Below are positions 12,863 to 59,849 of a stretch of 64,000 nt of DNA, piece after piece. How positions within the stretch are numbered: the stretch's first letter is position 1; the number at the start of each line of letters is the position of its first letter. Both the position numbers and the translations under genes were made by a program. The DNA comes from Hydrogenovibrio kuenenii DSM 12350. GTDB taxonomy: Bacteria > Pseudomonadota > Gammaproteobacteria > Thiomicrospirales > Thiomicrospiraceae. The DNA is taken from contig NZ_JAGP01000001.1 of NCBI RefSeq assembly GCF_000526715.1, forward strand, positions 2,108,001-2,172,000, written 5' to 3'. Under the pieces are notes generated by a model that searched no databases, had not been told where the DNA came from, and saw only the letters and a list, made by a program, of their open reading frames with translations.

Positions 12863-13549
12863 ATGATTTTTTTGATTATTGCATTTGTTGTGCTGTTTAT
12901 TGTCACCAGCTTGCCCAGTCTGTGGACCAAACACATCCTTAATAAATACAGCGCCCCTCATCCTGACATTCCCGGCAACGGCCACCAATTTGCTGAACAT
13001 TTGATTAATAAATTCCAGCTCGCGATTCGCGTTGAAGAAACACCCGATGGTGACCATTACGACCCCATTAATAAAATAGTCCGACTGTCTTCGGGAAACT
13101 ATCATTCCAATTCACTTACCGCCATCACCACCGTTGCTCATGAAATCGGTCATGCACTGCAAGACCAAGCAGACTACGAACCACTTAAACAGCGCACGCA
13201 ATTAATTGGTCGTGCGCAGTGGATGCAGAAAATGAGCGGTATTGCCTTAATGGCAACACCTGTTTTAATTCCGCTATTGCATACACCGATGATTGGATTA
13301 GTGACTTTCGCTGCGGGGTTTATCGGCATGGGCATACCGGTAATTATTCATCTCAGCACGCTTCCAGTAGAGTTTGATGCCAGCTACCAAAGAGCACTTC
13401 CACTATTGAAAGAAGGCGATTATTTAAACAAAAAAGATTTAAAAATCAGCCGAAAAATTCTCACCGCTTGTGCCATGACTTATGTCGCCGCGTCCTTATC
13501 AAGCCTATTCAATCTTTGGAAATGGCTGAGCGCTATCAAACGACACTAA
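12863..13549 (+). CDS. membrane zinc metallopeptidase (YugP family, PF04298-like)
   Basis: 228 residues. An N-terminal membrane helix (about 2-20) is followed by a domain with zinc motif HEIGHALQ and the later PVEFDASYQRAL segment, which supplies the third ligand and helix typical of YugP-like peptidases. Two or three further hydrophobic segments occur around residues 120-165 and 200-220. It starts 9 bases after the DUF255 gene and is probably co-transcribed. It ends before the inverted 19-bp repeat pair that likely terminates transcription. Confidence 0.9.
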   Translation: MIFLIIAFVVLFIVTSLPSLWTKHILNKYSAPHPDIPGNGHQFAEHLINKFQLAIRVEETPDGDHYDPINKIVRLSSGNYHSNSLTAITTVAHEIGHALQDQADYEPLKQRTQLIGRAQWMQKMSGIALMATPVLIPLLHTPMIGLVTFAAGFIGMGIPVIIHLSTLPVEFDASYQRALPLLKEGDYLNKKDLKISRKILTACAMTYVAASLSSLFNLWKWLSAIKRH

Positions 13550-13562
13550 TATTGAAACAATC

Positions 13563-13612
13563 AAAATCTGCCAGGCTGGGTCTTGTTGCTTTACCCCAGC
13601 CTGGCAGATTTT
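13563..13612. terminator. hairpin made of two inverted copies of the 19-bp dispersed repeat
   Basis: AAAATCTGCCAGGCTGGG (13563-13580) is the exact complement of 13595-13612, separated by 14 bases. The 18-bp perfect stem with A4/T4 edges lies between two convergent genes. It should act as a bidirectional terminator. It contains the only clear reverse-strand copy of the dispersed repeat seen in the window. Confidence 0.9.
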
Positions 13613-13620
13613 CGTAAAAT

Positions 13621-14334
13621 TCAAACTGCTCTAGCAACCACCCAAGCTTGCACTTTTAAATGAGGGTAAGTTTGCTTTAAAGTCTTTGCCAATTGTTCGA
13701 GCGTAGTGCCCGTCGTCATAACATCATCAATCAATACGACTTGTTTCATTGACGATAACGCTTCATTATCAATTGCAAAACAATTCTTTAAATTACGTTG
13801 GCGCTGTTTTTTATCTAACAAAGTTTGATGTGGCGTATCAACTTTACGGGTTATGCCTTGTTGTAACAATGGCATTTTCAACTGTTTAGACAAAAGCTTT
13901 GCCACTTCGTAGGATTGATTAAACCCTCGCTCAACCAATCGATTGGAATGTAAAGGCACCGCGATTAGCGCATCAATCTCGGTCATATCAATTCTTTGTA
14001 TCATCAGCTCTGCAAACACTCGACTCCAAAACAATTCACCATGGTATTTCAAACCATGAACCATCTGCTTGGCAGCTTCATTAAAAATCAACAAAGCTTG
14101 CGTTCGATCTAAATAGGATGTCTGATCCAAACAATCGCCACACAGTTGATTAACCGCACTAGGCATTGCACAAACAGGGCAACCTTGCTCCCAAAAAATT
14201 AATTCCTTGAGTAAGGCATCATCAAGATCCGCAGGAATGGTTGTCAATAAAGAGTGATTACCATGGTTCGACACAGGAAATAACCAATTTTCAATAATGC
14301 GAAACCAGCTATTTTCCTTTGTATATTGGGTCAT
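13621..14334 (-). CDS. ComF-family phosphoribosyltransferase-like protein (GntX/ComF)
   Basis: 237 residues with an N-terminal zinc-finger-like CPVCAMPS...CGDC arrangement and a C-terminal PRTase-type domain carrying VVLIDDVMTTGTT, the PRPP-binding loop. Family members are needed for DNA uptake in naturally competent bacteria (ComF) or linked to gluconate use (GntX). The sequence alone cannot decide between these. It is divergent from bioB and convergent with the peptidase gene across the repeat hairpin. Confidence 0.9.
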   Translation of the reverse strand: MTQYTKENSWFRIIENWLFPVSNHGNHSLLTTIPADLDDALLKELIFWEQGCPVCAMPSAVNQLCGDCLDQTSYLDRTQALLIFNEAAKQMVHGLKYHGELFWSRVFAELMIQRIDMTEIDALIAVPLHSNRLVERGFNQSYEVAKLLSKQLKMPLLQQGITRKVDTPHQTLLDKKQRQRNLKNCFAIDNEALSSMKQVVLIDDVMTTGTTLEQLAKTLKQTYPHLKVQAWVVARAV

Positions 14335-17658: not shown

Positions 17659-18594
17659 ATGCAACACTTTAGCCGAGACCACATCCAACATCATTTCGAC
17701 CATGCCGCCACCACTTACGATGACGCTGCTATTTTGCAAAAGCAGGTCGCAGAGCACTTGGATGAACGTCTCGAGCTGGTACAAATGCAACCCAAAACCA
17801 TACTGGATATTGGTGCCGGCACAGGTATTTTGACCGCTAAAATGCGTCAACGTTACCCCGACTGCAAGTTGATTGCCATTGACTTGTCTGCCAATATGCT
17901 GGCAAAAGCCGAACAAAAACTACATCAGCAATTCCCACCTTCTCTGTGGCAAAAAACCAAGTCTGCATTCGGCATACAAGACAATCCAATAGAATTTATT
18001 CAAGCAGATGCCAATCAAGTCCCTTTAGACGATGGCAGTGTAGACTTGATCGTCACCAATCTCATGTTGCAATGGTGCGATGATTTAGATGCCGTATTTA
18101 AAGAATTCCGTCGTTTATTAAGACCTGATGGACTTTTGATGATGACAACTTTCGGCCCTGACACTTTAAAAGAATTGCGCCAAGCTTGGTCAAAAGTAGA
18201 TGATCAACAGCACGTGAATACCTTTATCGATATGCATGATATCGGCGATGCATTGATTCGAAATGGTTTTGGACAGCCCGTCATGGATGTTGAACACTTT
18301 ACGCTGACCTATGACAAACCAATTGGCGTACTCAAAGACTTAAAAGCGATTGGTGCTACCAGCGCCCATAAAAACCGCCAGGCTGGGTTAATGGGAAAAC
18401 AGCACTTTACGCATATGTTAGAAGCCTACGAAGAATTTCGTCAAGAAGGCAAAGTGCCCGCAACCTATGAAGTGGTTCACGGTCATGCCTGGGCGGCACA
18501 AGAAGTTTTCAAAGGACCGGATCGAGACCGTAACGGCTTAGTCGAAATTAGCTTGGATGATTTTAAAAACCAGGCTAAACAGCTTCGTCGTTAA
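17659..18594 (+). CDS. bioC: malonyl-ACP O-methyltransferase
   Basis: SAM-dependent methyltransferase that starts biotin synthesis. It has 311 residues with an N-terminal IQHHFDHAATTYDDAA helix typical of BioC, motif I ILDIGAGTG, VTNLMLQWCDD and a TTFGPDTLKELR segment. It is the last gene of the bioB-F-H-C run and convergent with the chemoreceptor gene 11 bases away. Confidence 0.96.
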   Translation: MQHFSRDHIQHHFDHAATTYDDAAILQKQVAEHLDERLELVQMQPKTILDIGAGTGILTAKMRQRYPDCKLIAIDLSANMLAKAEQKLHQQFPPSLWQKTKSAFGIQDNPIEFIQADANQVPLDDGSVDLIVTNLMLQWCDDLDAVFKEFRRLLRPDGLLMMTTFGPDTLKELRQAWSKVDDQQHVNTFIDMHDIGDALIRNGFGQPVMDVEHFTLTYDKPIGVLKDLKAIGATSAHKNRQAGLMGKQHFTHMLEAYEEFRQEGKVPATYEVVHGHAWAAQEVFKGPDRDRNGLVEISLDDFKNQAKQLRR

Positions 18595-24560: not shown

Positions 24561-26795
24561 TTAAGCCATTTCTTGCGGGTCAACATCTATTGACCAACGC
24601 ACTTTATTCACCAACGGATGCGCATAAATATTCGACTCCAAACTGCCAAGCCAATGATGCAATAACCCGCGATGCGAACACTGTAATAACAACTGATAAC
24701 GAAATCGCCCTTGTCGTCTTAACATCGGCGCTGCAACAGGGCCAAACGCATCTAATGGCGCATCCCCCTGCCTGGCAGATTTTGCTTGATCTACCGCTTT
24801 TAATTGCAATGCGGATTCTATGTCTAATAAAAACTGCCAAGCGGACTGAGGGTCTATTGACTCGGCACGCAGCATAATTTGATAAGTATAAGGCGGTAAA
24901 TCGGCTACTTTTCGCTCCGCCAATGCTTCCGATGCAAACGCATCATAGCCTTGCTCAACCAATGTTCTTAACAATGGATGATCTGGATGATGCGTTTGTA
25001 TCACCACTTCACCTTGTTTTTCCGCGCGACCGGCACGCCCGGCAACCTGCACCACCAATTGCGCCATCCGCTCTGCGGCACGGAAATCACAACTAAACAA
25101 CCCTTGATCTATATCCAGCAAAGCCACTAATGTCACCTTCGGAAAATGATGCCCTTTCGCCAACATTTGCGTGCCAATCAAAATATCCGCGTGACCCTCT
25201 CGGGCAATCTGCGTGACCTTCTCCATCTGCCCTTTATTGCGGGTAGTGTCTCGGTCGATGCGTAAAGTCTTATGTTTGGGAAACCAGCTTTGAATAATAG
25301 TTTCCAGCTTCTCCGTACCTTGACCCACATCCACAAAATCCTGTTCACCACAGTTCGGACACGCCGGTGGCGCTTTTTGCTGATAACCGCAATGATGACA
25401 ACGCAACTCACGGAATTGATGGTGATAAGTCATATTCGCATCACAGCTCGGGCAAGCTGCCTGCCAACCACAACTATGACACATCAACACCGGCGCAAAA
25501 CCGCGGCGGTTCAAGAACAACAATACCTGTCCTTGCTGCTCAAGATGGTTCGTAATCATCTCACGCAAAACCAAAGACACGCCTTCATGCTGCTGAACAG
25601 AACGATCACCCCGCACATCCAGCAAACGCATATCCGGCATAGATGCACCACCGGCACGTTCTGTCAGTTTCAAATAACCATAGCGTTGTGACAACGCATT
25701 ATGCAGGGTTTCCAAAGATGGCGTTGCCGAGCCAAGAACCACCGGCACTTTTTCTAACTGTGCACGGCGCACCAACGCATCTCGCGCCGAGTAGCGAAAG
25801 TTATCTTGCTGCTTAAAAGACAAATCATGTTCTTCATCGAGAATACACAAGCCCAAGTTGGCAAAGGGCGTAAACAATGCCGAGCGTGTCCCCAACAAAA
25901 CTTTCACCTGATTTGATTGCACCATATACCAAGCGCAATGGCGTTCTTTATCAGTTAAATCTGAGTGCATTACCGCCACAGGTTGATTCAAAAATCGCTC
26001 AAACCGATCAACCGTTTGTGGCGTCAAACCAATCTCCGGCACCAACACCAACACCTGTTTGCCTTGTGCAATCACCTCTTCAATCATACCGAGATAGGTT
26101 TCGGTCTTACCGCTGCCCGTCACCCCCTCCAATAAAAAGGCATTGAACCCCTCGTTTTGCAACACCATATCCACAGCCGCTTGCTGCTGCTCATTTAACG
26201 CATGATTCACTTCTTCATTTCGCTGCCAGGCATGAAGACAATTTTTTTCGGTTTTATCCACCCAGCCCATTTCGTGAAAGCGCTTCATCGGCACACGCCA
26301 ACCACTCAAACAAGTCGCTATGGTTGATTCGGTTACAGGGTAAGGGTGAGATTTAAGAAATTCCAATAAGTTCAGTTGCTGAATCGCATTCGAACGAATT
26401 TTATCTGTCGCTTCGGCACGACCCGAGTCATTCAATTGCCAAGCAGTGACACCATCTAATACAACCGATTCACCTTCTTTCAAACGCTTCGGCAAGGCCG
26501 TTTGCATTACATTACCGATTGGCTCGTGATAGTAGTGCGCCGCCCATTGCAAAAACTGCAAATCCCGCTCTGAAAAAATCGGTTCGCCATCCACTATCTC
26601 CGTCACCGCACGAATCTTTTTCGCGTCCAGCTCCGTCGTTTCTTTTATCGACATGACAATACCAATCAGTTTTCGATTACGAAACGGCACCCAGACACGT
26701 CCGCCCACTACAGGCAGAATCTGCTTATCATCATAAACATATTGGTAATCCAGCGGCGTTAAAAACGGCCCCGGCACGGCGACTTGAATAAACAT
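24561..26795 (-). CDS. priA: primosomal protein N' (replication-restart helicase PriA)
   Basis: Superfamily-2 3'-5' helicase that reloads the replisome at stalled forks. It has 744 residues: an N-terminal DNA-binding domain, Walker A GVTGSGKTE, DEEH box in CILDEEHD, and two zinc-binding clusters (CHSCGWQAACPSC and CHHCGYQQKAPPACPNC). The C-terminal domain contains a variable loop (KSARQGDAP) encoded across a copy of the 19-bp dispersed repeat at 24765-24783. The gene is on the minus strand and divergent from pxpA. Confidence 0.98.
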   Translation of the reverse strand: MFIQVAVPGPFLTPLDYQYVYDDKQILPVVGGRVWVPFRNRKLIGIVMSIKETTELDAKKIRAVTEIVDGEPIFSERDLQFLQWAAHYYHEPIGNVMQTALPKRLKEGESVVLDGVTAWQLNDSGRAEATDKIRSNAIQQLNLLEFLKSHPYPVTESTIATCLSGWRVPMKRFHEMGWVDKTEKNCLHAWQRNEEVNHALNEQQQAAVDMVLQNEGFNAFLLEGVTGSGKTETYLGMIEEVIAQGKQVLVLVPEIGLTPQTVDRFERFLNQPVAVMHSDLTDKERHCAWYMVQSNQVKVLLGTRSALFTPFANLGLCILDEEHDLSFKQQDNFRYSARDALVRRAQLEKVPVVLGSATPSLETLHNALSQRYGYLKLTERAGGASMPDMRLLDVRGDRSVQQHEGVSLVLREMITNHLEQQGQVLLFLNRRGFAPVLMCHSCGWQAACPSCDANMTYHHQFRELRCHHCGYQQKAPPACPNCGEQDFVDVGQGTEKLETIIQSWFPKHKTLRIDRDTTRNKGQMEKVTQIAREGHADILIGTQMLAKGHHFPKVTLVALLDIDQGLFSCDFRAAERMAQLVVQVAGRAGRAEKQGEVVIQTHHPDHPLLRTLVEQGYDAFASEALAERKVADLPPYTYQIMLRAESIDPQSAWQFLLDIESALQLKAVDQAKSARQGDAPLDAFGPVAAPMLRRQGRFRYQLLLQCSHRGLLHHWLGSLESNIYAHPLVNKVRWSIDVDPQEMA
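24765..24783 (+). repeat. 19-bp dispersed repeat, intragenic copy in priA
   Basis: 18 of 19 bases match the consensus (A5 to T). It lies antisense to priA and encodes part of a variable loop (KSARQGD) between conserved C-terminal segments. Confidence 0.85.
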
Positions 26796-27573: not shown

Positions 27574-28292
27574 CGTTTCATTACCAAATCCAACCCGCTG
27601 CGGAAAACGCTTTATTACTGACGTTTACCTCCACCAGCAAAGCTGATGCAGGGTTAATGGATTTTTTGCCCGTATTACAAAAGTTCATTCCTCAGGTTGA
27701 AAGTACTTTTGCCGAAAACTTACGCGAGTTGGTGCCGTCTTATCACAGCTTATTATTGGTGTTCAAAAACCCGAATCTTGCCTCAGCAACCCAGCAATTA
27801 AATGATTTATTGATCGAGTTGCAGCAAAACCCTACCGACCCCAGCCTGGCAGATTTTCAAGGTCAAACGCATACTATTCCAGTGTGTTACGATCAAAGCT
27901 TCGGGCTCGATTTACTCACGCTTGCCGAGCAAAAATCACTGTCGATTGATGAAATCATCCAACTGCACAGCCAACAAACCTATCAAGTTTGCGCCATTGG
28001 TTTCGCCCCCGCTTTTGCTTATTTAGGCGAAGTAGACGAACGCCTTGCCTCACCCAGACACGCCTCGCCACGCTTAAAGATTCCCGCGGGCAGTGTCGGC
28101 ATTGCAGACCGACAAACCGCCATCTACCCCAAAGCTTCTCCCGCTGGTTGGCAAATACTTGGGCAAACGCCGTGGGATTTATCGCTCACCAACCCCGATA
28201 ACCTCACCCGCTTTCGTGTGGGCGACCAAGTGAAGTTTGAGCCGATTAGCCTTGAAGCGTTTCTCGCCATTCAAAACGGAGAAACATTATGA
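27570..28292 (+). CDS. pxpB: 5-oxoprolinase subunit B (KipI-like)
   Basis: 240 residues of the AHS1/KipI family. It has the IPVCYD start of the cyclophilin-like C-terminal domain, CAIGFAPAFAYLGEV, and RLKIPAGSVGIADRQTAIYP. It overlaps both pxpA and pxpC by 4 bases. The linker between its two domains is encoded across a perfect copy of the dispersed repeat (27839-27857, giving DPSLADF). Confidence 0.95.
   Translation: MTFHYQIQPAAENALLLTFTSTSKADAGLMDFLPVLQKFIPQVESTFAENLRELVPSYHSLLLVFKNPNLASATQQLNDLLIELQQNPTDPSLADFQGQTHTIPVCYDQSFGLDLLTLAEQKSLSIDEIIQLHSQQTYQVCAIGFAPAFAYLGEVDERLASPRHASPRLKIPAGSVGIADRQTAIYPKASPAGWQILGQTPWDLSLTNPDNLTRFRVGDQVKFEPISLEAFLAIQNGETL
27839..27857 (+). repeat. 19-bp dispersed repeat, perfect intragenic copy in pxpB
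   Basis: Matches the consensus at all 19 positions. It is sense to pxpB and encodes PSLADF in the inter-domain linker. Confidence 0.95.
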
Positions 28293-29646: not shown

Positions 29647-29665
29647 CCCCAACCTGGCAGATTTT
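29647..29665 (+). repeat. 19-bp dispersed repeat
   Basis: 18 of 19 consensus bases (G6 to A), immediately after the stop codon of the small membrane protein gene. Confidence 0.9.
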
Positions 29666-31181: not shown

Positions 31182-31200
31182 CCCAGCCTGGCAGATTCTT
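31182..31200 (+). repeat. 19-bp dispersed repeat
   Basis: 18 of 19 consensus bases (T18 to C) in the gap between two minus-strand genes. Confidence 0.88.
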
Positions 31201-33084: not shown

Positions 33085-33103
33085 CCCCAGCCTGGCAGAT
33101 TTT
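33085..33103 (+). repeat. 19-bp dispersed repeat, perfect copy
   Basis: Matches all 19 consensus bases, in the 504-base gap between the SDR gene and the acetate-type transporter. Apart from this and the small remnant at 33192-33272, I see nothing coding in the gap. Confidence 0.95.
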
Positions 33104-34128: not shown

Positions 34129-34147
34129 CCCCAGCCTGGCAGATTTT
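34129..34147 (+). repeat. 19-bp dispersed repeat, perfect copy
   Basis: Matches all 19 bases, 93 bases before the EamA gene start. Confidence 0.95.
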
Positions 34148-36429: not shown

Positions 36430-36448
36430 CCCCAGCCTGGTAGATTTT
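36430..36448 (+). repeat. 19-bp dispersed repeat
   Basis: 18 of 19 bases (C12 to T), 14 bases after murI. Confidence 0.9.
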
Positions 36449-39958: not shown

Positions 39959-39978
39959 CCCAGTCAGGCAGGTTTTTT
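39959..39978 (+). repeat. degenerate copy of the 19-bp dispersed repeat
   Basis: CCCAGTCAGGCAGGTTTTTT directly after the XRE gene stop keeps CCCAG, GGCAG and the T-run. It might equally be a simple T-rich gene end. Confidence 0.35.
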
Positions 39979-41963: not shown

Positions 41964-41996
41964 AAAAAACCGCCAGACCCAACCTGGCAGTTTTTT
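41964..41996. terminator. bidirectional terminator resembling a repeat pair
   Basis: AAAAAACCGCCAG (41964-41976) pairs with CTGGCAGTTTTTT (41984-41996) with one mismatch and a 7-base loop. It serves the HTH gene and metE, which converge here. The right arm with its preceding ACCCAAC strongly recalls the dispersed 19-bp repeat, like the hairpin at 13563-13612. Confidence 0.85.
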
Positions 41997-45405: not shown

Positions 45406-46272
45406 ATGAACGCGACCCTTGCCCTGATTTCGGAAACCGACCCTGCATTGAACACGGCCTTGCAAGCGCTGACGCAAGCGCTCGATTTGCCCTTACTAGA
45501 CCGGGAATCGGCACTGAAAAAACACACCAATATCAGCAATTACGACTTTCTGTTGGGTTGGTTAAACACAAATGAAAATGTTCTCCCCCCCAGGCTGGCA
45601 CTTTTTTCCAAAAAAACCGGCCCTGTTTTTATCGACTTTTTAGGGGGCAAAAAGAATCATCGCCGTCAATTCGGTGGAGGCAAAGGTCAACCACTTGCCA
45701 GAGCCGTTGGTGCTTCGGCAGAACATCCGCCAAAACTGATTGATGCGACAGCGGGCATGGGGGGAGATGCCTTTGTGTTTGCGACACTTGGTTGTGACGT
45801 ATTGATGATTGAACGCTCACCAGTTATCGCCGCACTATTACAAGATGCCTTAAATAGAGCAAAAACCGAACTTAAATTGGAACACGAAGGTCAAACAACG
45901 AGATTCGATGCGGAAGAGCGTACATTTTTAGAAGAAACCATTGAGCATATGAGTTTGGTGAATGCTGATGCGGCTGATTTTCTCAATAATGAAAAACCTG
46001 ATGCTGATGTTATTTATCTCGACCCGATGTACCCAGAAAAAAAGAAAAAGGCGGCGACCAATAAAGAAATGACCGCATTACAGGGATTAGTTGGCCCAGA
46101 CATGGACTCTAGCAATCTACTGGAAGCGGCATTGCAAGTGGCGAAAAAACGAGTAGTAGTGAAACGCCCAACCAAAGCCGAACCGATTCAACTTGCGGAT
46201 GGTCGATTGCCTTCTGCCAACATCCAAAGCCCAAACACTCGTTATGACCTTTACACGCTAAGTCGCCTCTAA
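45406..46272 (+). CDS. rsmJ: 16S rRNA (guanine-1516-N2)-methyltransferase
   Basis: About 288 residues. FIDFLGGKKNHRRQFGGGKGQPLARAVG, motif I LIDATAGMGGDAFV and the catalytic-type IYLDPMYPEKKKKAA followed by RVVVKRP are hallmarks of RsmJ. The start is ATG 45406; a TTG lies 6 bases upstream in frame. A degenerate repeat-like stretch (45588-45606) falls in its N-terminal part. Confidence 0.94.
   Translation: MNATLALISETDPALNTALQALTQALDLPLLDRESALKKHTNISNYDFLLGWLNTNENVLPPRLALFSKKTGPVFIDFLGGKKNHRRQFGGGKGQPLARAVGASAEHPPKLIDATAGMGGDAFVFATLGCDVLMIERSPVIAALLQDALNRAKTELKLEHEGQTTRFDAEERTFLEETIEHMSLVNADAADFLNNEKPDADVIYLDPMYPEKKKKAATNKEMTALQGLVGPDMDSSNLLEAALQVAKKRVVVKRPTKAEPIQLADGRLPSANIQSPNTRYDLYTLSRL
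45588..45606 (+). repeat. degenerate copy of the 19-bp dispersed repeat inside rsmJ
   Basis: CCCCAGGCTGGCACTTTTT matches 16 of 19 consensus bases, sense to rsmJ, encoding PRLALF. The protein aligns well with the family here without an obvious insertion, so chance similarity is possible. Confidence 0.4.
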
Positions 46273-49789: not shown

Positions 49790-49808
49790 CCCCAGCCTGG
49801 TAGATTTT
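49790..49808 (+). repeat. 19-bp dispersed repeat
   Basis: 18 of 19 bases (C12 to T), just past the recQ 3' end. Confidence 0.9.
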
Positions 49809-49823
49809 GACGAGACTTTTTGA

Positions 49824-51653
49824 CTAAGCTTGACGCAGTAGATTTAAAAACTCGAAACCGTAGCGGCTGAGTTTAGTTTCACCCACCCCGCTAATTTTCA
49901 GGAGTTCATGGTCACTTTTCGGCAGGGCGACCGCCATTTCCAGCAAGGTGGCATCACCAAACACCTGATAGGCGGGTTTGTCCTCACTGTCGGCAATCTC
50001 TTTGCGTAAGGCCCTCAAATTCTCAAACACAGATTGCTGAGATTCGGTCAGACCTTCTCTTGCAGTCGCCCGACCCTGACTGGCAGATTTTGTCGATTTA
50101 ATTCGTGGTTTTGCCAGCTGCAGTTCGACCTTACCTTTCAGCACATCACCAGACGATGCGGTCAACTTCAATACAGAATAGTTGCGAATATCCTGCATCA
50201 AATAGCCACGGTGAATCAGTTGACGGAAAATACTTTGCCACTCGGCAACCGAAAATTCCTTGCCGATGCCATAGGTGCTGAGCTGTTGATGCCCAGATTG
50301 GCGAATGCGTTCATTGTCCGCCCCTCTCAACACTTCAATCACATAGCTCATGCCAAAGCCCTGTTGTAATCGGTACACACAAGACAAGGCTTTTTGCGCG
50401 ACGACCTTACCGTCAAACAACACAGGCGGGTTCAAACACACATCACAATTACCACAGGCATGATGCATGGGGTCGCCAAAATAATTCAGCAGAACACTAC
50501 GACGGCAGGTCTGGGCTTCAGCAAACTCAACCATGCTGGCGAGCTTGAAACTTTCTATCCGTTTTTGATCCTCATTGCCGACCTGTTCGATAAAATGCCG
50601 AGCCGTCACCACATCCTGCGAACCGTAAAGCAACAAGGCTTCAGACGCCAGTCCATCACGCCCGGCGCGTCCGGTTTCCTGATAATAGCCTTCGATGTTT
50701 TTTGGCAAATCGTAATGCACCACAAAGCGGACATTGGGCTTATCGATCCCCATGCCGAATGCCACCGTCGCCACCACAATGCTTACTTCATCTCGCATAA
50801 ACTGTTGATGCACTTTGTGGCGTATTTCAGCTGGTAGCCCCGCATGGTAAGCCTGTGCGCGATAGCCTTTTTGTTGTAATTGCAACGCCACTTCTTCCAC
50901 CCGCTTGCGGCTTAAACAATAGACCACGCCACTTTCTTCCGCTGCGTTTCGCTGGTCTAAAAAATCGGCCAGTTGTTTAAATGGCTGTCGTTTTTCCAAT
51001 ACGGTATAGCGAATATTCGGGCGGTCAAATCCGCTGACATGCACCCTTGGCGACTGCAACGACAAACGCTGCACAATATCCTCACGGGTGGCGGCATCTG
51101 CCGTCGCGGTCAAGGCAATAAAAGGCACCTGGGCAAACAGGTGACGCAACTGACCGATACGACTGTATTCCGGCCTAAAATCATGCCCCCATTGTGAAAT
51201 ACAATGCGCTTCATCAATGGCAAACAGACTGATCGGCAAGCTCTGCAACTGTTGAACAAAATCCTGATTCAACAATCTTTCGGGCGCGACATACAATAAA
51301 TCCAATTGCCCGGTATGCAACTGCATCAACACTTGGTTGGCTTCTTCCAGACCGAGAGTTGAGTTGTAATAAGCCGCTTGCACACCATTCGCCTTCAAAG
51401 CGCTGACTTGATCTTGCATCAGTGAAATCAATGGCGACACCACGATTGCCGTGCCTTCGCGCAACAAGGCTGGAATCTGATAACACAAGGATTTTCCGCC
51501 CCCGGTCGGCATCAACACAAAGCAATCAGCACCCTGCATCACATCCTCAATTACTTCGATTTGATGCGAACGAAATTCGGTATAACCAAAGGTCGATTGC
51601 AGACAATCTAATGCCTGTTGCTGACAAAAAACAGAATGGGACTCAAGTGACAT
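49824..51653 (-). CDS. recQ: ATP-dependent DNA helicase RecQ
   Basis: 3'-5' helicase of recombination and repair. It has 609 residues: Walker A MPTGGGKSLCYQ, DEAH box AIDEAHCISQWGHDFRPEY, motif VI QETGRAGRDG, zinc-binding CRRS...CGNCDVC, an RQC winged helix and a C-terminal HRDC domain (PAYQVFGDATLLEMA). The RQC-HRDC linker (IKSTKSASQGRA) is encoded across a repeat copy at 50073-50091. Confidence 0.98.
   Translation of the reverse strand: MSLESHSVFCQQQALDCLQSTFGYTEFRSHQIEVIEDVMQGADCFVLMPTGGGKSLCYQIPALLREGTAIVVSPLISLMQDQVSALKANGVQAAYYNSTLGLEEANQVLMQLHTGQLDLLYVAPERLLNQDFVQQLQSLPISLFAIDEAHCISQWGHDFRPEYSRIGQLRHLFAQVPFIALTATADAATREDIVQRLSLQSPRVHVSGFDRPNIRYTVLEKRQPFKQLADFLDQRNAAEESGVVYCLSRKRVEEVALQLQQKGYRAQAYHAGLPAEIRHKVHQQFMRDEVSIVVATVAFGMGIDKPNVRFVVHYDLPKNIEGYYQETGRAGRDGLASEALLLYGSQDVVTARHFIEQVGNEDQKRIESFKLASMVEFAEAQTCRRSVLLNYFGDPMHHACGNCDVCLNPPVLFDGKVVAQKALSCVYRLQQGFGMSYVIEVLRGADNERIRQSGHQQLSTYGIGKEFSVAEWQSIFRQLIHRGYLMQDIRNYSVLKLTASSGDVLKGKVELQLAKPRIKSTKSASQGRATAREGLTESQQSVFENLRALRKEIADSEDKPAYQVFGDATLLEMAVALPKSDHELLKISGVGETKLSRYGFEFLNLLRQA
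50073..50091 (+). repeat. 19-bp dispersed repeat, intragenic copy in recQ
   Basis: 16 of 19 bases, including the complete CTGGCAGATTTT end. It lies antisense to recQ in the variable linker between RQC and HRDC. Confidence 0.7.
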
Positions 51654-51831: not shown

Positions 51832-51850
51832 CCCCAGCCTGGCAGATTTT
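51832..51850 (+). repeat. 19-bp dispersed repeat, perfect copy
   Basis: All 19 bases match; it ends 2 bases before the 3' end of the RND pump gene. Confidence 0.95.
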
Positions 51851-58497: not shown

Positions 58498-59849
58498 AAC
58501 AAACATCTTATCACCCTACCCCAGCCTGGCAGATTTTAACGGCAACGCTAATCAGAATGGCATGGCGTAATCTTTGGCGTAATCGTAAACGTACCTTAAT
58601 TACACTCAGCTCAATTGCCATTGGTTTTGCCTTAGCGGTACTGTTTATCGGCATGGGAGATGGTAGTCATAACTCGATGATTCGCAATGCGATTCAACTG
58701 GGTGAAGGGCATATCACCATACAACCCAAAAACTACCAGGCTGCCCCCAGCAACCACTTATTTCTGGCCGATGGCAAACGACTAGAACAAACCATCAAAA
58801 CGCTACATATTCCCGGAAAAGTCATGCCGAGAATCACCATACAAACTCTTGCAAGTACAGCCAATAATGCGGTTGGCGCAGGATTATTGGGGATTGAAAC
58901 AGATAGCAAAACAGCGCTTGATCCAATGGAAGAAAAGCTCAAGCCAACCCTTGTTTCTGGAGGCTGGCTCAAACCTAACGACAATCGAGGCGTGGTTATT
59001 GGTTCGGGCATGGCTCGCAAACTCAAAGCGAAAGTTGGCAATAAAATCGTGCTCATGGCGGGTAAAAAAGGCGGGGATTCACAGGCTTATCTGGCAAAAG
59101 TGCGTGGTATTTTCAATGCCCCCCTGGATGAAATGAACGACTTCTTTATTGTGAGTCACTTATCTTTTGCGCGCCAATTTTTATTGGGTGAAGGCGGAAA
59201 AGCCTCTCTTGAACCGGTTACCCGTTTCGCTATTTTCCTTAATAACTCCGACACACAAGACGACTGGAAACAGCAACTAAAAATCGCTGTTAATAAAGCT
59301 TTTCCAGTAGGCAGCAAAACCGACACTAAAACTGGCGAAGATACTGCAACACCTGTCGTTTTGGATTGGCAGGAAATGATGCCACAACTGATTCAATTCA
59401 TTGCGCTGGACAATGCTGGCAACTATGTCTTTTTGGTGTTTATTTTAATCATGGTGGTGTTTGGTATTCTGAACACTGTCTTGATGAGTGTACTGGAACG
59501 CACACGTGAATTTGGGTTATTGCGCGCGCTTGGCATGAACCGCCGTCACCTGCTTTTTCTGGTGCTGTTTGAATCTTTGTTACTGAGTTTTCTTGCCATT
59601 ATTGTCGGTTGGTTTTTGGGTGGACTCACACAGCTTTGGTTTAGCCATCACGGCATAGACTTCTCTGCCTTTATGGAAGGTGGTACCAGCTTGATGGGCA
59701 CGATGATGGATCCAATCATTTATACCGAATTATCTTGGGATCGCGTTAAACAACTGACGATTATTGTATTTGTAACCACATTGATCACAGGCATTTACCC
59801 TGCGGTTAAAGCCGCTAAAGTAACGCCAATTGAAGCATTACGCACCTAG
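58494..59849 (+). CDS. ABC transporter permease (FtsX/MacB type), second
   Basis: 451 residues with the same architecture: RMAWRNLWRNRKRTLITLSSI, a periplasmic domain, and GILNTVLMSVLERTREFGLLRALG plus three helices. The first 20 or so residues (SYHPTPAWQIL) have no counterpart in the first permease and are encoded across a perfect dispersed repeat. The real start could be an in-frame ATG at 58557, though that lacks a ribosome site and the ATGA overlap favours 58494. Confidence 0.92.
   Translation: MKQTSYHPTPAWQILTATLIRMAWRNLWRNRKRTLITLSSIAIGFALAVLFIGMGDGSHNSMIRNAIQLGEGHITIQPKNYQAAPSNHLFLADGKRLEQTIKTLHIPGKVMPRITIQTLASTANNAVGAGLLGIETDSKTALDPMEEKLKPTLVSGGWLKPNDNRGVVIGSGMARKLKAKVGNKIVLMAGKKGGDSQAYLAKVRGIFNAPLDEMNDFFIVSHLSFARQFLLGEGGKASLEPVTRFAIFLNNSDTQDDWKQQLKIAVNKAFPVGSKTDTKTGEDTATPVVLDWQEMMPQLIQFIALDNAGNYVFLVFILIMVVFGILNTVLMSVLERTREFGLLRALGMNRRHLLFLVLFESLLLSFLAIIVGWFLGGLTQLWFSHHGIDFSAFMEGGTSLMGTMMDPIIYTELSWDRVKQLTIIVFVTTLITGIYPAVKAAKVTPIEALRT
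58519..58537 (+). repeat. 19-bp dispersed repeat, perfect copy at a permease N-terminus
   Basis: All 19 bases match. It encodes TPAWQIL near the start of the second permease, or lies in the leader if translation starts at 58557. Confidence 0.95.

Follow-up and report, generated by a model that had tools for sequence, protein, structure and literature searches.

At positions 13563-13612 of a 64-kb window from the Hydrogenovibrio kuenenii DSM 12350 genome (the window being the whole stretch analysed, 64,000 nucleotides), two copies of one word face each other between convergent genes. Is this pair a local terminator, or one instance of a repeat with a wider role? The answer we favour, with a probability of roughly 0.72 and judging from sequence comparison, is that the word would work like a DNA uptake sequence, which would make this the third bacterial family to have one, and that its inverted pairs would double as terminators.

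The inverted pair and its neighbours

An earlier reading of the window, made from the sequence only, had described a perfect 18-bp stem of two opposite copies between convergent genes, and this was confirmed. Both arms are AAAATCTGCCAGGCTGGG, pairing at 18 of 18 positions around a 14-nt loop (Table 1). The RNA fold of this segment reaches -33.0 kcal/mol on the + strand, against a shuffle mean of -13.0 (z -7.3), and -35.1 kcal/mol on the - strand (z -7.8 against shuffles). A simple terminator scan has a loop limit of 3-8 and is thus blind to the 14-nt loop. Rfam at its gathering threshold gave no matches in the 64-kb window, and a tRNA scan of the same window likewise gave none.

The competence-linked family of the right-hand gene had also been offered as evidence, which our results do not support. 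The gene scores 101 bits against the comF model, under the 233-bit cut-off, and copies of the word are spread genome-wide. In general, 34 of 104 sampled copies lie in convergent gaps.

The window holds 17 copies at up to 3 mismatches, 15 of them on the - strand. One belongs to a second hairpin, at 41964-41996, which had been described as a similar but more decayed pair and lies between metE and a small HTH gene (identified from the sequence). The hairpin itself is real, with fold z-scores of -3.4 (+) and -4.2 (-), but it is no decayed full pair. Rather, one full copy in the GGTTGGG form (the T dialect described below), 2 mismatches from this species' word, is closed by the half copy AAAAAACCGCCAGACCCAACCTGGCAGTTTTTT.

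Table 1. Features in the window (C and T dialects differ at base 14 of the word; G001 and G010 are related genomes)
Feature	Position	Strand	Detail
Left convergent gene, zinc peptidase Zn_peptidase_2 (PF04298)	12863..13549	+	Pfam match
Whole inverted pair (putative bidirectional terminator), convergent gene ends	13563..13612	.	stem of 18 bp; fold z -7.3 (+) and -7.8 (-)
Left arm of the pair: C-dialect motif copy	13563..13580	+	exact AAAATCTGCCAGGCTGGG
Right arm of the pair: C-dialect motif copy	13595..13612	-	exact AAAATCTGCCAGGCTGGG
Right convergent gene, ComF/GntX-like phosphoribosyltransferase	13621..14334	-	NCBIfam TIGR00201 (comF), 101 bits, under 233-bit cut-off
Motif copy inside gene; T at base 14 in G010 and G001	18370..18387	+	
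Motif copy inside priA gene	24766..24783	-	
Motif copy inside gene; PSLADF here, PNLVDF in G010	27840..27857	-	
Motif copy, sister (T) dialect	29648..29665	-	
Motif copy	31182..31199	-	
Motif copy	33086..33103	-	
Motif copy inside ORF	34130..34147	-	
Motif copy	36431..36448	-	
Degenerate motif copy, 3 mismatches	39959..39976	-	
Motif copy, sister (T) dialect, part of hairpin 41964-41996 by metE	41978..41995	-	48/48 aligned bases = G001
Motif copy inside gene, 3 mismatches	45589..45606	-	
Motif copy at gene end; T dialect at same place in G010	49791..49808	-	
Degenerate motif copy inside gene	50074..50091	-	
Motif copy just downstream of AcrB-type gene	51833..51850	-	
Motif copy inside ORF	58520..58537	-	

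Abundance and form of the word

The word was counted in the whole H. kuenenii genome (G000; 2,452,457 bases in 2 contigs). This yielded 401 copies of the 18-mer AAAATCTGCCAGGCTGGG at up to 3 mismatches and 211 exact copies of the 13-mer CTGCCAGGCTGGG (94 forward, 117 reverse), with 0 in the backward-word control in both cases. The 3.4-kb second contig holds 0 copies. In a 464-kb sample we found 90 copies of a 17-mer at up to 3 mismatches, against 0 both in Markov sequence and for the reversed word; mismatch classes 0, 1, 2 and 3 contained 25, 38, 16 and 11 places, respectively. The consensus of 120 distinct copies (624 kb) reads AAAATCT[G/A]CCAGGCTGGGGT, with abrupt edges. Weak AT-rich flanks are present near -8 and +10 to +12, at offsets similar in G010 and G001, although this agreement is not independent as the sites are partly orthologous. 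USS have AT-rich flanks as well, and that of Haemophilus influenzae is present in well over 1000 copies, more than the word has here. The exact 18-mer was found in 10 stretches of named genome contigs, one match each and nine of them in other taxa, in a search that may omit records near the window's genome.

Placement relative to genes

Placement was scored for 104 copies in 544 kb of the H. kuenenii genome with mechanical ORF calls. Of these, 34 lie wholly inside ORFs, 5 partly and 65 are intergenic, the last group divided between convergent (34), tandem (25) and divergent (6) gaps. Convergent gaps make up 7.4 of the 49.9 kb of intergenic DNA (15%), yet hold 34 of the 65 intergenic copies (p 2e-12, or 1e-8 with pairs counted once). 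Close pairs (up to 70 bp apart) numbered 14 in the same 544 kb, where about 1.4 adjacent pairs of any orientation were expected; all 14 are inverted and none is direct. Nine stand in convergent gaps and five in tandem ones, and their A/T tails point inward in 8 and outward in 6. These counts lend good support to the proposal of an uptake-sequence-like repeat whose inverted pairs mark the ends of genes, and a search for further pairs at convergent ends found enrichment.

Inverted pairs at convergent ends may double as putative bidirectional terminators. That the word is a family of transcription terminators and nothing else is very improbable. The strong hairpins at convergent gene ends would suit such a family, but just 28 of the 104 copies belong to close pairs and 34 of 104 are wholly inside ORFs, and terminators need neither an exact 18-base word nor the concerted base switch reported below. 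We rejected this explanation on the intragenic and single copies.

Strand distribution

Copies favour the leading over the lagging strand at 131:80 (ratio 1.64, p 0.0005), a count summed from position bins with the terminus set at 1.2 Mb and 17 reverse sites assumed to lie beyond 2.23 Mb. This bias and the genome-wide spread could indicate a site for a chromosome-organising or recombination protein, Chi, KOPS and matS being the sites for comparison. We consider this quite improbable: the ratio of 1.64 is near the roughly 1.49 estimated from GC skew alone and far from a polar signal, and the inverted gene-end pairs and the concerted base change would be left unexplained. A strand-polar KOPS-like signal was rejected on the 131:80 distribution. 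DUS and USS are described, in passages of PMC1939737, as without orientation bias on the chromosome; the H. kuenenii word differs in its mild leading-strand excess, near the GC-skew expectation.

Non-syntenic stretches showed no depletion: 17.8 kb of them held 5 copies, and the 213 kb used for comparison held 43 (p 0.42), in a small sample of stretches that are only putatively mobile. In sampled stretches of the main contig (G000:C1), GC skew flips sign between 1.12 and 1.22 Mb, suggesting a terminus at 1.12-1.22 Mb and an origin near the contig start.

Conservation of sites and the switch at base 14

We compared 244 kb, containing 51 H. kuenenii sites, with genome G010, which is about 75% identical to H. 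kuenenii in one aligned stretch. Ten sites were without synteny in the compared DNA. At the 41 syntenic sites G010 has the motif in 40 and a decayed form in 1. The 40 kept sites comprise 33 that align without gaps (up to 4 mismatches), 6 with gaps and the motif within 60 bases, and 1 placed by flank anchors. Among the 33 gapless pairs, base 14 is the same in only 3 and is C in H. kuenenii and T in G010 in 30. The other 16 non-wobble positions are identical at 517 of 528 bases, and base 8, the G/A wobble, is the same in 25. Similarly, of 46 sites compared with G001, 38 were syntenic and 37 retained the motif, base 14 being the same in 2 of 27. Across sampled stretches, base 14 is C in 48 copies and T in 3 in H. 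kuenenii, T in 58 and C in 1 in G010, and T in all 52 in G001. Sites thus keep their place and their other letters while base 14 switches at nearly all of them, and copies change in place, not by insertion.

In the reverse direction, 47 of 59 G010 sites were syntenic, with the motif present in H. kuenenii at 41 and absent at 6 (4 with gaps). These six leave room for a few insertions or deletions, and the many near-identical short copies might recall a mobile repeat of REP or MITE type spread by insertion. Such an origin is nonetheless extremely improbable, given that 33 of 41 syntenic sites are gapless with the motif in both species, that it is shared at 40 of 41, that one third of copies are inside ORFs and that each species spells these shared sites in its own way. 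REP/MITE insertion was rejected on the gapless orthologous sites.

Two places in the window stood out in these alignments. Between 41955 and 42005, the T-dialect copy and its hairpin match G001 at 48 of 48 bases within an aligned block that is 82% identical, and this metE-side piece was possibly exchanged between species. Around 50074, in the gene at 49824-51653 (609 aa), a block is 92% identical to G001 and 81% to G010, unlike its neighbourhood, and a recent exchange at this gene is possible.

Effects on proteins

Twenty sites lie within ORFs, 17 of them comparable with G010 and 3 without a hit. In eight proteins the motif reads P-S-L-[A/V]-[D/E] in H. kuenenii and P-N-L-[A/V]-[D/E] in G010, placing Ser and Asn, respectively, at the same motif codon (e.g. 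PSLADF and PNLADF). Five further sites differ at the affected codon: A becomes V at two, and single sites show A to T, R to N and Q to L. In the R-to-N and Q-to-L cases, the H. kuenenii copy also deviates from the word at an adjacent base. No clear dialect change was seen at the other four of the 17 sites. When the eight proteins were compared by blastp, no two different ones matched below E 0.2. The simplest reading is that these residue changes would be driven by a force that acts on the word as DNA and not on the proteins. For Neisseriaceae, passages of Frye et al. (PMC3630211) point out that Q/L and S/C variation in proteins would be possible in a genome carrying two dialects.

Dialects in the genus and family

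Each of the 10 other genus genomes has 0-2 exact copies of this species' 13-mer, and each of 44 further genomes searched has 0-1. At up to 3 mismatches the 18-mer has 411 copies in G001 and 377 in G010, and 2-31 in the eight remaining genus genomes. Sister dialects comprise words with GGTTGGG endings, CCAGGGGTGG and the palindrome CCAGGCCTGG. In k-mer scans, G007 uses AAAATCGCCAGGGGTGG (14 copies in 78 kb), and (A)CCAGGCCTGG(T) is the word of seven other genus genomes, G003 and G006 being scanned in 20 kb each. CCAGG is the inner core common to the genus dialects. The palindrome CCAGGCCTGG has 367-677 copies in 7 of the 11 genus genomes and 0 or 1 in H. kuenenii, G001, G010 and G007. To our knowledge, such palindromic dialects are unlike any known DUS or USS.

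Across the family, 26 of 62 genomes carry more than 200 copies of CCAGGCCTGG, against at most 2 in the backward control. By group, these are 7 of the 11 genus genomes, all 9 of g6, 9 of 32 in g3, the single g4 genome and 0 of 9 in g2, g5 and g7 together. Other family words, from 20-40 kb per genome, are ACAGGCCTG[T/C], [C/G]CAGGCCTG[G/C], AAACTCAACAGGCCGGGT and ACCGGCCGGT. No strongly over-represented word was found in 80 kb of G024 or in 60 kb each of G018, G012, G061 and G062; the top 8-mers of G061 and G062, TACCGGCA and GCCGGTAA (6-7-fold), resemble part of ACCGGCCGGT. NCBI taxonomy places Hydrogenovibrio in Piscirickettsiaceae.

In G008, tracts of A and T border the palindrome left and right (27 sites, EM-oriented, null subtracted); flanks were weaker in other genomes. 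It looks as if the H. kuenenii word were a one-sided version of the G008 palindrome. An asymmetric core and a palindrome stood at the same place (up to 1 mismatch) at 2 of 5 sites between H. kuenenii and G008, 1 of 6 between G010 and G008 and 1 of 4 between G001 and G008; comparison with other palindromic genomes gave same-place matches at 0 of 8. In a ComEC tree (one gene, 11 genomes), the GGTT pair is sister to GGCT, G007 follows on a long branch with its place unsure, and a branch supported at 99/98 has all seven palindromic genomes on the same side. The dialects fit this tree and follow phylogeny.

The palindromes bring to mind the iterated palindrome HIP1 of cyanobacteria. A HIP1-like word would be kept by methylation-linked mismatch repair or by an intracellular DNA-binding protein, and the asymmetric form would be derived. 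The commonest family dialect is indeed the true palindrome CCAGGCCTGG, with its A and T tract flanks in G008, and HIP1 likewise has alternate forms that replace one another. According to passages of Elhai 2015 (PMC4390886), HIP1 and the alternate HIPs are palindromic, dispersed and replaced by other palindromes in some species, but are tied to matching methylases. Maintenance of the HIP1 type is weakened here because six of the 11 genus genomes, H. kuenenii included, lack the C5-methylase (PF00145), while all 11 carry an over-represented dialect. Furthermore, the dialects do not have any one methylase site in common: CCWGG is absent from ACCGGCCGGT and ACAGGCCTGT, and GGCC from the H. kuenenii word, which is asymmetric over 18 bp and not palindromic. 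We consider a HIP1-like origin unlikely. Dcm/very-short-patch repair was rejected, as H. kuenenii has no C5-methylase (PF00145).

It is also rather unlikely that the words are the footprint of an undescribed intracellular system converting sites of about 18 bp genome-wide to the current spelling. Such a system would rewrite residues in unrelated proteins, and its specificity would drift between palindromic and asymmetric forms across the family.

Competence genes

The lack of competence genes would have sat poorly with an uptake sequence, as the sequence-only reading had recognised, but such genes are present. ComEC was found in 11 of 11 genus genomes and DprA in 62 of 62 family genomes. In H. 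kuenenii, both comEC (an 868-aa ORF) and dprA hold a motif copy. The genome also encodes a YifB-family ATPase (the family to which ComM belongs), a secretin of MSHA type that scores over cut-off, an ATPase resembling MshE and an operon of prepilins. In about a quarter of the genome, a regex scan bearing on PilQ, PilT and ComEA saw only the MSHA-type pilus secretin and ATPase. Neither ComP_DUS (PF16732) over cut-off nor GspH/FimT (PF12019) was found in any of the 11 genus genomes, and ComP and FimT were rejected as the receptor on this basis; another protein may serve as the receptor. The copy within comEC, at G000:C1:937684, is in the sister (T) dialect, one of 3 T among 51.

An uptake-sequence-like word

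We infer a receptor, preferential uptake, spread by transformation and terminator activity behind these patterns. The word of 18-20 bp (AAAATCTGCCAGGCTGGGGT here) would be recognised by a receptor that the natural-transformation machinery exposes on the cell surface, and fragments with the word would be taken up preferentially. Recombination would then spread it, with copies gathering wherever tolerated: in gene-end gaps, and in coding DNA where the encoded residues are acceptable. A shift in receptor specificity would pull hundreds of dispersed copies to a new spelling, giving species dialects, and inverted pairs at convergent ends would serve a second use as bidirectional terminators. We favour this reading because of the abundance of the word, its dialects, positional conservation, concerted switch, pairing and gene-end placement, and the presence of ComEC and DprA. 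It is weakened by the lack of depletion in non-syntenic stretches and the mild leading-strand bias, by the failure to find ComP_DUS and GspH/FimT in the 11 genus genomes, and by the five family genomes that keep DprA with no strongly over-represented word in 60-80 kb.

The word shares several features with the Neisseriaceae DUS as presented in passages of Frye et al. 2013 (PMC3630211). These are its many copies, dialects that follow phylogeny and in some cases differ by a single base, an inner core common to the dialects (CTG in Neisseriaceae, CCAGG in Hydrogenovibrio), terminator-linked inverted pairs, genic copies that affect residues, and family members without the motif. It differs in sequence and family, in its longer conserved word, in its palindromic dialects and in having no ComP over the Pfam cut-off, and it is known here from sequence alone. 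The Pasteurellaceae USS, according to passages of PMC12616744, is likewise gammaproteobacterial, with two dialects that share a core, and often forms inverted repeats with a terminator role; the word itself is different, and the receptor candidate there is ComN/PpdA.

Passages of the same paper (PMC12616744) give only two families as known to discriminate DNA by uptake sequence. In the accessible parts of the open-licence PMC literature we came across no description of a motif like this for Hydrogenovibrio, Thiomicrospira or Thiomicrorhabdus, and the available main text of a 2026 paper on Piscirickettsia salmonis transformation genes does not contain 'Hydrogenovibrio', 'Thiomicro' or 'DUS'. 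If the uptake-sequence reading is true, a third family, of sulfur-oxidising autotrophs, would be added, and its dialects, some of them palindromic, would vary far more widely. Sister species whose shared sites differ by a single switched base would give a direct view of a receptor and hundreds of sites changing together, and a DNA-level force would be seen to impose one and the same residue difference on eight or more unrelated proteins. As a practical lead, transformation of Hydrogenovibrio might be aided by placing the cognate word on the DNA.

Other repeats in the sampled genomes

In G016, a g7 genome, AAAAAGTCGGGGACCCCC has 7 dispersed copies in 80 kb (L164-L167), distinct from the tandem array there, and forms an inverted pair at L166 17886/17929; it may be the dialect of another genus. 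The tandem array in G016 (L164 4137-4254) has a period of 15, and another in G062 (L178 8598-8980) a period of 123 bases. In G018, nearly 100 copies of overlapping words such as CTCGCTGCCGCCA and CCAAGGCAG fall within 20 kb (L118; G018:C1:100001-120000), a cluster that looks like a large repeat gene. Lastly, six copies of CT[A/G]AAGCCTGCGCCCCA are clustered in about 3 kb of G013 (L115 4252-7450).
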